This document shows, in pieces, positions 40,615-63,243 of a stretch of DNA of 64,000 bases; within the stretch, counting starts at the first letter, position 1, and each line of letters starts with the position of its first letter. The stretch comes from Zetaproteobacteria bacterium (GTDB lineage Bacteria; Pseudomonadota; Zetaproteobacteria; Mariprofundales; Mariprofundaceae), in the NCBI GenBank assembly GCA_003228735.1, contig QIFG01000001.1, positions 1 through 64,000 of the forward strand, written 5' to 3'. Position numbers and translations under genes: made by a program. Under the pieces are notes generated by a model, which was not told where the DNA came from, did no database searches, and saw only the letters and a list, made by a program, of their open reading frames with translations.

Positions 40615-43600
40615 GTGATCAAGAATATCATCAACGGCTCGCTGAAGAACGGCATGCTGGTGTTCATGGCCACAGGATTTCTGATTCTGGGCGGCTTATG
40701 GTCGGTGAAAAACATCTCGCTGGATGCCATTCCGGACCTCTCCGACGTGCAGGTCATTCTGTTCACCGAGTTTCCCGGTCAGGCGCCGCAGGTGGTGGAA
40801 GATCAGGTCACCTATCCATTGACCACAAAGATGCTGCAGGTTCCACGCGCCAAGCTGGTGCGCGGCTATTCTTTTTTTAATTTTTCCTTTGTTTATATTA
40901 TTTTTGAAGAAGGTACGGATATGTACTGGGCACGCTCACGCGTGCTTGAATATGCCAATGCCGCCGCACAGAACCTGCCTGCCGGTGTTCAGCCGGTGCT
41001 GGGGCCGGATGCCACCGGCGTAGGCTGGATTTATCAATATGTGCTGGTGGACAAAACCGGAAAGCATGATCTGGCCGAGCTTCGCAGCCTCCAGGACTGG
41101 GTAATCCGCTACCGTCTGGAAACGGTCAAGAATGTATCTGAAGTCGCCTCCGTGGGTGGTTTTGTCAAACAGTATCAGGTGGAAGTGGATCCCAATATTC
41201 TGCTGGGCTACAACATCCCGCTGTCCAAGGTGAAGCACGCCATCATGCGCTCGAACAACGATGTCGGCGGGCGTCTGGTGGAAATGGCCGAAACCGAATT
41301 TCTGGTGCGTGGCCTGGGTTATATCAAATCCGTTGATGATCTGAATCAAATTCCGGTAGGCGTGGATGAAAACGGCACGCCTATCCGCCTGATGGACGTG
41401 GCCCATGTGCATCTGGGGCCGGAACTCAGGCGCGGCGCGGTGGATTACAATGGCGAAGGCGATACAGCCGGCGGCATCGTGGTCATGCGTTTCGGCGAGA
41501 ATGCATTGACCACCATTGAAGCCATTCGCGAAAAGATTGCCGAACTACAGGAAATCATGCCGGAGGGCGTGGAAATCGTGCCGGTGTATGATCGCGGCGA
41601 TCTGATTGAGCGGGCGGTGGACAACCTCAAGGAAAAGCTGTTTGAGGAGTTTATCGTCATTGCCCTGGTATGCATGATTTTTCTGCTGCACGCCCGTTCC
41701 GCCCTTGTCGCCATCATCACCCTGCCCATGGGCATGCTGATGGCTTTCATTGTGATGCAATGGCAGGGCTTGTCCGCCAACATCATGTCGCTTGGCGGCA
41801 TTGCCATCACGCTGGGAGCTATGGTGGATGGCGCCATTGTGCTCATCGAAAATGCGCACAAACATCTTGAACACGGCGAGGCGAAAAAGGGATCGGCGCT
41901 GACGATCCCCGAACGATGGTCGGCGATAAAGGACGCCTCGAATGAGGTGGCGCCGGCCCTGTTCTTCTCGCTGCTTATTATTACTTCATCCTATCTGGTG
42001 ATATTCACCCTGGAGGAGCAGTCAGGACGATTGTTCAAGCCACTGGCCTTTACCGCCACCTATATCATGGCCGCCGCCGCCGTGCTTGCCATCACGCTCG
42101 TGCCGTTGCTGATGGGCTATTTTATTCGCGGCAAGATCATACCGGAGGAAAAAAATCCGGTGAACCGGTTCCTCAAATTCATTCATGGCCCGGCGCTTGC
42201 CAATGCCCTGAAATATAAATGGGCCACCCTTGGCATCGCCCTGGCTGTGTTGCTGAGCGTAGCCTATCCCTTAAGCAAGCTGGGCAGCGAATTCATGCCG
42301 CCTCTGGATGAGGGCGATATCCTCTATATGCCCACGGCCCTGCCCGGCATCTCCATCACCAAGGGCAAGGAACTGATGCAACAGATGGGCAAGATTCTGA
42401 AAACCTTCCCGGAAGTGCAATCCGTGTTTGGCAAGAATGGACGGGCGGAAACATCCACCGACCCGGCCTCTCTGGCCATGACGGAAATCACCATCCGCGT
42501 CAAACCCAGGGAACAATGGCCGGACCCGTCCAAAACCACCAAGCAACTCGTCGATGAAATGGACAAAGCCATCCAGTTCCCCGCCGTGGCCAATGCCTGG
42601 GGCTTCCCGATCAAGACGCGCATCGACATGCTTTCCACCGGCATCAAAACTCCGGTCGGCATCAAGATCATCGGGCCTGATCTCTCCGTGCTGCAAAGAG
42701 TCGGCAAGGATATCGAGGGCGTCCTGAACATGTTGCCTGATACCAAGTCGGCCATGGGTGATCGGGCGATGGGCGGCTATTACCTGGATTTCGACATCAA
42801 TCGCAAGGAAGCGGCGCGTTACGGCCTGACCGTGGGCGATGTGCAGGATGTCATCCAGTCCGCTGTTGGCGGCATGAACATCACGGAAACGGTGGAAGGG
42901 CTGGAGCGTTACCCTGTCAACCTGCGTTATGCGCGAGGACTGCGCAGCAGCCCGGAAGAACTCAAACGCATGCTGATCCCCACCCCGACGGGCGTGCAGA
43001 TTCCAATTGCCCAGGTCGCCGATCTTGTCATCCGGCGCGGGCCGCCCTCAATCAAGAGTGAAAACTCTCTGTCCGACACATGGATTTACGTGGACATCAA
43101 GACCTCGGATATTGGCGGCTATGTTGACAGGGCCAAACAGGCCGTCGCCGCACAGGTAAAGATTCCGCCCGGCTACGAGGTGCTCTGGTCCGGGCAGTAT
43201 GAATACATGCAGCAGGCCAATGAGCGCATGCGGCTGGCTGCGCCGCTGGTGTTGATCCTGATCTTTCTGCTGCTGTATTTCAATTTCAAAACACTGATTG
43301 AACCGATGGTGGTTATGGCCTCGGTGCCGTTTGCACTGGCTGGCGGCGCCTGGCTGATCTACCTGATGGACTACAACCTGAGCGTGGCTGTGGACGTGGG
43401 CTTTATCGCGCTGGCCGGCGTAGCGGCCGAGATCGGCGTGCTGGTGCTCACGTTCATCGGCCATGAAATAGAGCGCAAGCGTGCAGAGTTGAAACGCCCG
43501 CTTTCCTCAGTAGAAATATTTGAAGCTGTGCTCAATGGCACTTCCCAGCGTGTACGTGCCATCGCTATGACGGCCGCCGCCATCATCGCCGGGCTGTTGC

Positions 43601-60381: not shown

Positions 60382-61029
60382 ATGAAGCCGTTTGATACTC
60401 GGAACAATCCCGAAGATGCGGTACAAAAGGAGTACGCCAGGCTGGCTCCTGATTATGACGAGCGCTGGTCATTTTACGTTGAGGCGTCACTCCATGAGAC
60501 TTTGAAGAGAATCAAGATCGAACAGGGCCAGAGCGTGCTGGATGTCGGTTGCGGCACCGGGGTGTTGCTGAAAACGTTAGCGGATACTTATCCCGATGTT
60601 GCACTGGCGGGCGTTGATCTCACGCGGGAAATGCTTGCAGTCGCCCGTAAACGGCTGCCCAAGGCCGTTCGCCTGGAGCAGGCCGGAGCCGAAAAGCTGC
60701 CCTTCGATGATGAATCATTCGACACCGTTATATCCTGCAACATGTTTCACTATATCAGGGAGCCCATTGCCGCACTTGAAGAGATGCGGCGGGTGCTGAA
60801 GCCAGCAGGCGCTTTTATTGTGACGGATTGGTGTGATGATTATCTGACCTGCCGGATGTGTAATCTGTTTCTACAGGCCTTCAACCCGGCCCACTTCAAG
60901 GCCTACCGGAGGGAGGAGTGCAGCAACCTGCTTGCCGCGTCAGGCTTCAGGGGAATCAATATAGAACGCTACAAGATTAACTGGCTCTGGGGGATGATGA
61001 CGGCAACGGCCCACAAGCAGGGCGATTGA
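60382..61029 (+). CDS. Class I SAM-dependent methyltransferase
   Basis: A 215-residue enzyme with motif [17 protein letters not shown], motif II-like [18 protein letters not shown], and a later [22 protein letters not shown], as in the UbiE/Menaquinone methyltransferase type. The C-terminus ([20 protein letters not shown]) is Cys-containing. Substrate not determined; the end overlaps the convergent ferredoxin gene. Confidence 0.85.
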
Positions 61030-61381
61030 GCGGATGCTGCACGAGCAGATAATCCTGCACCGGCGTACCGCCTATCAGATGTTCCTGAATGATGCGTTCC
61101 AGAACATCCGGCGTGCAGGAGTGGTACCAGACGCCTTCGGGATAAACGAGTGCGATGGGCCCCTGCTGACATATCCGCAAACAGTCAGCCTTGGTTCGGT
61201 AGATTCCACCCTTGCCCGTCAGGCCGAGTTCATCGAGGCGGGATTTCAGGTAGTTCCAGGATTCGAGGCTTGCCGCCTTCTCCGAGCATTTTGGCTTGGT
61301 CTGATCGCAGCACAGGAAGATATGGCGCTTGATGCCACCTATTTCCAGGGCTGAAGTGATTTTTTGCAGTGATTCCAGCAT
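60977..61381 (-). CDS. Thioredoxin-like [2Fe-2S] ferredoxin
   Basis: A 134-residue protein with the thioredoxin-like 2Fe-2S pattern: [16 protein letters not shown] (first Cys ligands), then [24 protein letters not shown] (second pair). Such proteins serve in electron transfer or as subunits of dehydrogenases. Its 3' end overlaps the methyltransferase gene by 53 bases on the other strand. The C-terminal tail ([15 protein letters not shown]) is low in homology. Confidence 0.85.
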
Positions 61382-61460
61382 ATCCGCATCTTAAGAGACA
61401 TGAAGATGTTTTCATATCGTCTTAACGGTTTCGCAAGAACCCGCGCCTAAGATTCCGCCC

Positions 61461-61547
61461 ACCTGACGCTGCTACCTCCTCCCCTCCCTCCTCTGTGGCG
61501 TCAGGTAACCTTTCAAGCCCCGGCCTCCCAGCCGGGGCTTTTCTTTT
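61461..61547 (+). ncRNA. Candidate small RNA with anti-Shine-Dalgarno loops
   Basis: In a 400-base gap without a gene, ACCTGACGC (61461-61469) pairs with GCGTCAGGT (61498-61506) to present a 28-base loop containing CCTCCTCCCCTCCCTCC, an extended anti-SD. It is followed by a perfect terminator whose own loop is CTCCCA. The layout matches the alphaproteobacterial cuckoo/CUCCUCCC-type sRNAs. The 5' end is not known; a -10-like TAAGAT is at 61448-61453. Confidence 0.5.
61516..61547 (+). terminator. Rho-independent terminator of the candidate sRNA
   Basis: AGCCCCGGC and GCCGGGGCT form a perfect 9-bp stem with a 6-base loop, followed by TTTTCTTTT. No plus-strand protein gene precedes it within 480 bases, which supports an independent transcript such as an sRNA. 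Confidence 0.85.
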
Positions 61548-61568
61548 ATCCGGGATTAATCAACCCGG

Positions 61569-61783: not shown

Positions 61784-62260
61784 ATGCACTCAAACCACAC
61801 AAATACTCCGTCTTCTTTTGCGGTTTCGATGCCTTGCAACGGAAGGGCGATGTCTTTCGATAGGTCATGGAGAAGCATGCTGGGCACTACATCGGGGTCG
61901 CTATTTACCATTGCCTTGCCCAAGCTGTTGTGCCCCGTGTGCTGGCCAGCCTATGCGGGAGCTATCAGCTCACTGGGGATAACATCCATACTGAACACGG
62001 CATGGCTGACACCACTCACGATTATCACGCTTGTGCTTATTCTGGGCACCCTCGGTTTTCGCGCCGGGACGCGCAGGGGCTTCGCGCCCTTTATTTTGGG
62101 GATGCTGGGAGCAAGTGTCTTGCTTGTTGGAGAGTTCATAATGAAGGTCATGCCGCTAATGTACACAGGGGGAGCCTTACTGATCGCCGCTTCCATATGG
62201 AACGGATGGCCACGCAAGAAAGATACGCTCAGTAGTTGCCCGGCCTGTGCCAAACCTTGA
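61784..62260 (+). CDS. MerC-like mercury/metal uptake membrane protein
   Basis: A 158-residue protein with four hydrophobic segments. The pattern PKLLCPVCWPAYAGAISSLG matches MerC-type proteins, with a CPVC pair at the entrance of a helix. Ribosome site AAAGGGG. The N-terminal 20 residues are poorly conserved, so an internal start is possible. It would bring Hg(II) or another metal into the cytoplasm. Confidence 0.75.
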   Translation: MHSNHTNTPSSFAVSMPCNGRAMSFDRSWRSMLGTTSGSLFTIALPKLLCPVCWPAYAGAISSLGITSILNTAWLTPLTIITLVLILGTLGFRAGTRRGFAPFILGMLGASVLLVGEFIMKVMPLMYTGGALLIAASIWNGWPRKKDTLSSCPACAKP

Positions 62261-62262
62261 AC

Positions 62263-62294
62263 TTGACTCTATACCAAGGTGCAGGGTTTATACT
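62263..62294 (+). promoter_or_regulatory. Second MerR-type promoter
   Basis: -35 TTGACT, -10 TATACT, 20-base spacer containing the imperfect dyad ACTCTATACC / GGTGCAGGGTT. It begins two bases after the MerC-like stop and drives the thioredoxin-like gene and merR. Confidence 0.75.
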
Positions 62295-62327
62295 TACAGT
62301 ATAAGACCAATCAAAGGAGATCATATC

Positions 62328-62597
62328 ATGAGCACCAAACGAAGGATCGAGGTATTCAGTGCAGGTTGCCCGGCCTGCAACGAGGCAGTTGACCTGGTTC
62401 GCCACCTGGCCTGTGATTCATGCGAGATTAGCGTACTGGACATGCATGATAAGCAGGTAGCCAAACGGGTAAAAGCGCTTGGGGTACGATCCATCCCATC
62501 TATCGCGATTGACGGAAAATTGGCGGATTGCTGCTCTGGCAGGGGGATCGATGAGGCCGCCCTGCGCGCTGCCGGCATTGGTCAGGCCTTGGCATAG
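62328..62597 (+). CDS. Small thioredoxin/glutaredoxin-like protein
   Basis: An 89-residue thioredoxin-fold protein with the motif GCPACNEA (CPAC), followed by LACDSCEISVLD and the cis-Pro turn VRSIPSIAIDGKLADCC. AAAGGAG precedes the ATG. Such proteins accompany mer genes and may reduce or bind metal thiols. The two CC-rich segments could bind mercury. Confidence 0.8.
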   Translation: MSTKRRIEVFSAGCPACNEAVDLVRHLACDSCEISVLDMHDKQVAKRVKALGVRSIPSIAIDGKLADCCSGRGIDEAALRAAGIGQALA

Positions 62598-62624
62598 GAC
62601 ATAAAGCGCCAGAGGTCAAAGCCT

Positions 62625-63029
62625 ATGAAGCGGAAAACCATCGGGTGGGTTGCGAAGGAGGCGGGCGTAAACGCACAGACCGTTTTATACTACGAACGCC
62701 GGGGGCTGCTTAAGGTATGCGCCCGTTTGCCCTCCGGGTACCGCCTGTTTGACGATGAAACCGTGCGTCGCATCCGCTTTATCCGTCATGCGAAAGAACT
62801 TGGTTTTACGCTTGAGGAGATCAAGCAACTTCTCGGTCTACGCGCTGGCGGTTCAGAATGTGCCCAAGTCAGGAAAGTAGCCGAGGCCAAAGCAACTGAT
62901 ATTCAGGAGCGCATTGAGAAGCTCTCCAGTATGCGGGCGGTATTGCTTGATCTCGCCCGGCGATGCGAGCAGGACGGCAGCATTGATGCCTGCCCGATTC
63001 TCAAAACCCTGGAAGCGGCAGATGGCTAA
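62625..63029 (+). CDS. merR: MerR mercury-responsive regulator
   Basis: A 134-residue MerR with the N-terminal HTH (TIGWVAKEAGVNAQTVLYYERRGLL) and cysteines at 79, 114 and 123. Their spacing (35 and 9) is exactly that of the three Hg(II) ligands of Tn501 MerR (82, 117, 126). So it should sense Hg(II). It probably controls the two promoters upstream. It overlaps merF by 8 bases. Confidence 0.9.
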   Translation: MKRKTIGWVAKEAGVNAQTVLYYERRGLLKVCARLPSGYRLFDDETVRRIRFIRHAKELGFTLEEIKQLLGLRAGGSECAQVRKVAEAKATDIQERIEKLSSMRAVLLDLARRCEQDGSIDACPILKTLEAADG

Positions 63030-63243
63030 TTCATCAACCTTGCTGAAGGCCGGCATAGTCGGCAGCGCCATTACAGCTTTGTGCTGCTTCACTCCAGTCT
63101 TGGTAGTGCTGTTTGGCACGTTGGGGCTGGCCACTTGGGTGGGATATTTGGACTATGTGCTCATGCCAGCGCTCGTCTTTTTCGTTGGCCTTACCGCTTA
63201 TGCATATTTCCGAAAAGAGAATGAGGGTACGTCATGCAGGTAA
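63022..63243 (+). CDS. merF: MerF mercury transport protein
   Basis: A 73-residue protein with two membrane helices. The paired cysteines of helix 1 are in ITALCCFTPVLVVLFGTLGL, the MerF signature; LDYVLMPALVFFVGLTAYAY is helix 2. The second, C-terminal CC pair of typical MerF is reduced to a single Cys (TSCR). It imports Hg(II). Its ends overlap the neighbouring genes. Confidence 0.88.
   Translation: MANSSTLLKAGIVGSAITALCCFTPVLVVLFGTLGLATWVGYLDYVLMPALVFFVGLTAYAYFRKENEGTSCR

Follow-up and report, generated by a model that had tools for sequence, protein, structure and literature searches.

The question raised by this locus is whether a gap between genes near the end of the window, by which we mean the whole 64,000-nucleotide stretch of Zetaproteobacteria DNA analyzed here, encodes a stand-alone small RNA (sRNA) and, if so, to which family it belongs and on what it might act. 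An earlier note, made from the sequence alone, had described a 9-bp perfect stem displaying a loop, followed by a terminator with a CTCCCA loop and without a preceding plus-strand gene. This description was exact to the base. By inspection, ACCTGACGC at 61461-61469 pairs with GCGTCAGGT at 61498-61506, and RNAfold extended the stem to 12 bp (61461-61472/61495-61506), the nine Watson-Crick pairs being followed by U-G, G-U and C-G, two of the 12 pairs thus being G-U pairs. A 22-nt loop at 61473-61494 was left unpaired in this fold. The second hairpin (61515-61540) was folded as AAGCCCCGGC-CTCCCA-GCCGGGGCTT, a 10-bp stem closing the CTCCCA loop, and is followed by the T-run TTCTTTT. The closest upstream plus-strand gene stops at 61029, and the sole gene between this position and the terminator, a 2Fe-2S ferredoxin gene at 60977-61381, lies on the minus strand; hence, the terminator serves no plus-strand gene. 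The features of the locus are as follows.

61411 to 61437, plus strand: activator-box-like triple repeat TTCAT-N6-TTAAC-N6-GCAAG with an 11-bp period and the last unit at −35; 74 of 81 hairpin members carry this box at the equivalent position
61448 to 61453, plus strand: −10 box TAAGAT, its spacing to the third repeat matching that in relatives
61460 to 61547, plus strand: predicted sRNA of ∼88 nt, the start placed from the −10 box and the end from the T-run
61461 to 61472, plus strand: 5′ arm of hairpin 1 (RNAfold and covariation)
61473 to 61494, plus strand: C-rich anti-Shine-Dalgarno loop TACCTCCTCCCCTCCCTCCTCT, predicted to be open (RNAfold; CCTCC or CTCCC in the loops of 80 of 81 members)
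61495 to 61506, plus strand: 3′ arm of hairpin 1 (RNAfold and covariation)
61515 to 61547, plus strand: intrinsic terminator with loop CTCCCA at 61525 to 61530 (sequence and RNAfold)

A coding role for this RNA was rejected, as it contains no start codon preceded by a ribosome site and as loop lengths within the family differ by non-multiples of three. No matches to the sRNA were detected in the viral contigs searched. A MerC-like gene (61784-62260, plus strand) begins ∼240 nt downstream of the terminator, and mercury-type genes occupy the region immediately 3′ of the sRNA (61784-63240), encoding MerC-like, glutaredoxin-like, MerR-type regulator and MerF proteins.

A DNA search of the same genome detected a second copy, 82% identical to the first, with an RND efflux gene on one side and a kdtA-like gene on the other. 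The third-best DNA match (L004), which lay antisense to the closing part of a histidine kinase coding region, was discarded as due to chance. A possible third copy in the window genome (G000:C23:19633-19718; ∼1521-1600 of locus L093) was weak and divergent, with the loop GGTCCCCTTCCCCCTCATCG and no clear repeat box. A pattern search of the family Mariprofundaceae gave 25 matches, spread over 19 of its 74 genomes, compared with few for the reversed control. A covariance model, R1, was built from 17 members and contained 19 pairs, nine of which had changed on both sides (24 cells, versus 6.3 for shuffled alignments and 0 to 5 with a slid partner). When the set was widened to 45 distinct arms, double changes were observed at every pair except one; as these arms had been selected by pairing, only the variety of pairs counts as evidence in this set. 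Conservation of the stem in relatives, which the earlier note had named as the check on which its proposal could fail, was therefore found, the stem being kept by compensatory changes. The sequence of the stem itself (GTCTGG/CAGAC) was conserved more than pairing requires.

The model matched the window copy at 61451-61548 with 76.3 bits (E = 3.5e-17). Matches at E < 1e-8 were present in 64 of the 74 genomes of the family, 35 of its 36 good genomes had a match at E < 1e-7, and four genomes of sister families gave values of 6e-10 to 4e-8. None of ∼221 sampled genomes of other Pseudomonadota reached E < 1e-8; the best score among them, 4.7e-7, was taken as background. A strict pattern run over 84,980 named species matched nine contigs, all from Zetaproteobacteria and mostly from Mariprofundus, with M. 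erugo P3 and strain EBB-1 among the carriers. Copy number is best read from the individual matches, which give two sure copies for the window genome and approximately five for one complete genome of Mariprofundus, since R1 at E ≤ 0.01 gives up to 24 copies per genome, mostly plain terminators, where the real number is ∼2 to 5. Scanning of all the fetched loci yielded 81 distinct hairpins, 74 with the repeat box and 80 with a CCTCC or CTCCC loop; a handful of the seven box-less hairpins may be due to chance. An orthologue of the second copy was found in synteny in nine loci from several genera, where an RND pump gene precedes it by ∼50 to 130 nt. In genus g4 (L115, L117, L120, L121, L124 and L070), two or three sRNA genes stand in tandem, and most of the genes in these arrays have a box promoter to themselves. 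A sub-threshold match to 6S RNA (38 of 46.4 bits, E = 1.3e-4) lies just upstream of the type-A copy in the complete Mariprofundus genome (L043, 1207-1371).

Chance was excluded as an explanation for the hairpin by the 82%-identical second copy and by a covarying family that extends across the order. As read from sequence, the stretch in the window is, with very high probability, a real and conserved sRNA gene, and the genome carries at least two predicted sRNA genes of this family. The proposal of a candidate sRNA with an anti-Shine-Dalgarno loop was thus borne out in the form of a predicted gene of ∼88 nt within a covarying, multi-copy family.

The members also have a common promoter, composed of three TTMAY-type units spaced 11 bp apart, the last of which lies at −35 and is followed at a constant distance by a −10 box. 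A search with the promoter pattern alone, ignoring the RNA, detected ∼117 sites in 63 of the 74 genomes, whereas the reversed pattern detected 6. Of the promoter sites, 75 were distinct and readable, and ∼65 of them led directly to a C-rich-loop hairpin; a portion of these loci had first been brought in via the RNA, and the loci obtained by promoter alone (L110 onward) behaved alike. The window copy is missed by the strict promoter pattern (no matches in G000) due to its degenerate third repeat, GCAAG. A few of the remaining promoter sites precede a different kind of gene: in four Mariprofundus genomes, the repeat box TTAATTANATNTTAATTTACTAATAAG was observed upstream of a gene for a conserved exported EF-hand protein (L160, 2181-2834, in G044; L161; L162; L163), and hence the regulon may extend beyond the sRNAs. 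The features shared by the family are this repeat promoter with its fixed −10 box, a predicted RNA of ∼85 to 120 nt, a covarying stem, a C-rich loop and an intrinsic terminator. Both the predicted RNA class and the putative promoter are strongly supported.

Direct repeats with a period of 11 bp are typical for response regulators of the OmpR/PhoB family. It is likely, judging from the box, that a response regulator of this type controls the sRNAs; it would bind the three repeats and activate transcription under stress. An OmpR-type DNA-binding domain was found twice in the window genome, in a PhoB-like protein encoded near pstS and in a regulator of the heavy-metal type (G000:C78). The latter scored 281 bits with TIGR01387 (cut-off, 279), and the adjoining sensor kinase scored below the TIGR01386 cut-off. 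PhoB was set aside as the protein binding the box, as the region upstream of pstS in relatives carries TGTCA-type Pho boxes and lacks the sRNA box; comparison of the Pho box (CTGTCAY-N4-CTGTCAY) with the sRNA box (TTMAY-N6-TTMAY) likewise did not place the sRNAs in a PhoB regulon. The heavy-metal-type regulator is the best candidate because the only other OmpR-type regulator found looks PhoB-like, the assignment being one by elimination in an assembly that is 95.6% complete. The chances that this regulator is the controlling one are about even; in the window genome, it would then be the activator. No repeat box was found near the response-regulator genes searched. ColR of Pseudomonas putida recognizes a site with the 16-bp consensus YYNASNNYTTTTTSAC, and its sensor, ColS, responds to Fe(III), Zn, Mn and Cd (PMC2689224, PMC4074579). 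The sRNA box resembles this site in having the same TTNAC-N6-TTCAC layout, a likeness of layout only. In contrast to ColR, the candidate regulator is of the TIGR01387 type, and no ColR orthologue was identified.

The action of the RNA was approached through its loop. The units CCUCC and CUCCC are exact complements of GGAGG and GGGAG, and GGAGG stands before 61 of the 405 starts sampled. The predicted single-stranded loop of 22 nt, complementary to the Shine-Dalgarno sequence, is a feature that the RNA shares with the C-rich-loop class of Shine-Dalgarno-blocking sRNAs, which includes LhrC, sX13 and RNAIII. Hfq (PF17209) was detected in none of 10 Zetaproteobacteria genomes from nine genera, including the window genome, while 5 of 14 control genomes were positive; the Zetaproteobacteria may be a class without Hfq. 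Loop-first pairing independent of Hfq, as known for sX13 (PMC3771888) and observed for LhrC (PMC4132741), is favored because of the complementarity to GGAGG and GGGAG combined with the failure to detect Hfq in these ten genomes. From its anatomy, the sRNA is likely to act on Shine-Dalgarno sites. The loop would pair without Hfq to G-rich Shine-Dalgarno stretches, and this pairing would block translation of a set of mRNAs.

Searches for targets gave no enrichment. The mean pairing energy between the loop and start regions was −11.3, no better than the −11.4 of the reversed loop or the −10.7 ± 0.7 of shuffled loops, and perfect complements of the loop showed no enrichment over those of reversed or shuffled loops. 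Within a quarter of the genome, the strongest complements included those at pheS, two complex I (nuo-type) genes, an RND pump gene and CstA; nuoA, nuoL and the RND gene at 40615 were among the best. Overall, the complements were no better than those of control loops. The suggestion that metal genes are particular targets was not upheld, as start regions were bound no better than by reversed or shuffled loops, and the statement that many ribosome sites are AAGGAGG was overstated, this sequence serving as the Shine-Dalgarno site of 2 of 52 genes in the window and 5 of 405 sampled genes. In genus g8 (L127, L132 and L135), the sRNA has the RND gene on one side and nuoA on the other, the latter ∼200 to 240 nt downstream; two small-scale checks found G-rich start regions for nuoA in this genus and are suggestive only.

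The lack of detectable enrichment for Shine-Dalgarno targets, together with conservation of the GTCTGG/CAGAC stem beyond the needs of pairing, could indicate that the RNA is real and that its C-rich loop binds other G-rich RNA or a C-binding protein, or that the DNA forms a G-quadruplex or i-motif. This reading is unlikely, given the exact match of CCTCC and CTCCC to GGAGG and GGGAG and the frequency of GGAGG before starts. Furthermore, only 17 of 81 loops contain four runs of three C residues, and hence a quadruplex is not a conserved feature.

Cuckoo RNAs are said, after work by Reinkensmeier and Giegerich in 2015, to consist of two to four adjacent hairpins, each with CCUCCUCCC in its loop. 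The earlier note had likened the locus to the two-loop design of known alphaproteobacterial sRNAs, and it could be argued that the present RNAs are not a separate family and descend, vertically or by horizontal transfer, from a remote branch of the cuckoo/CcsR or ar14 sRNAs. The cuckoo RNAs, CcsR1-4 and ar14 do resemble the present family in having CUCCUCCC-like anti-Shine-Dalgarno loops and several copies (PMC10253847, RF02344). The loop chemistry is the same, 27 of the 81 loops containing CCTCCTCCC exactly, those of both copies in the window genome among them, and no Rfam sRNA comes closer to the window copy than ar14, with 26.8 bits (E = 0.18). However, this score is below the ar14 gathering score of 58.8 bits, other members scored 20 to 23 bits, and no Rfam family reached its gathering score with the window copy. 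R1 found nothing above background in the ∼221 other Pseudomonadota genomes. DUF1127 (PF06568), the small partner gene of cuckoo RNAs at the CIN1 locus, was detected in 0 of 74 family genomes, while the Escherichia coli control was positive. Unlike the cuckoo RNAs, each RNA has a single C-rich hairpin, and its terminator loop is mostly plain: 6 of 69 terminator loops were C-rich, so that the window copy shares this trait only with its paralog in the same genome and a few others. The promoters also appear to differ: CcsR is described with an RpoH-type (RpoHI/RpoHII) promoter (PMC10253847) and processing from a shared transcript, whereas the copies here have their own putative repeat box of the response-regulator type and a fixed −10. 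Membership of the cuckoo/CcsR or ar14 families was rejected on the basis of DUF1127, the single C-rich hairpin, the copies' own repeat promoter and the ar14 score, and the two-loop assignment was abandoned; even a distant common origin appears improbable.

The least likely reading, that the element acts in cis on a neighbor, as a leader, an attenuator or a read-through terminator, for example of the MerC-like gene that follows on the plus strand after ∼240 nt, is highly improbable, as the downstream gene in relatives varies in strand and kind, the sole widely common neighbor is the upstream RND gene in a subset of relatives, and a separate promoter precedes almost all copies, including those in the tandem arrays of L121 and L124.

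Two other C-rich-loop sRNAs offer closer parallels in design. LhrC1-5 of Listeria monocytogenes is a multi-copy set in which C-rich (UCCC) loops block Shine-Dalgarno sites and a single two-component system, LisRK, activates all copies (PMC4132741). Compared by description, the present family shares the multiple copies, the C-rich loop and, putatively, two-component control. It differs in that LhrC is from a Firmicute and carries UCCC not only in the loop but also in the linker and the loop of the terminator, and in that regulator and targets are proven for LhrC and inferred here. In Xanthomonas, sX13 acts through C-rich stem-loops on G-rich motifs near start codons without a need for Hfq (PMC3771888). 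It resembles the present RNAs in having compact stem-loops with C-rich loops; it differs in having three hairpins with 4C/5C loops, a polA locus and another lineage, and no sequence relation was found.

Considered as a whole, the best explanation is probably that the locus is a stand-alone sRNA gene of a multi-copy family in the Mariprofundales, activated by a response regulator and blocking Shine-Dalgarno sites without Hfq. The earlier note's expectation that an sRNA in this lineage would be new held, in that no described Zetaproteobacteria sRNA was found in the literature searched, which takes in few subscription journals; the family appears to be previously undescribed and extends, by its predicted genes, across these marine iron-oxidizing bacteria. 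A more tentative possibility is that one OmpR-type regulator, probably heavy-metal sensing, acts mainly via several near-redundant anti-Shine-Dalgarno sRNAs and so turns a metal or envelope signal into a broad, Hfq-free brake on translation. The family would provide the Zetaproteobacteria with a first regulatory RNA system, which is class-wide, multi-copy and covarying and has its own common promoter element, and would be a test case for the action of C-rich-loop sRNAs without Hfq. The likeness to LhrC, sX13 and the cuckoo RNAs suggests convergence on the same solution. If the regulator is metal sensing, iron or metal stress would be tied to the control of translation in these organisms.
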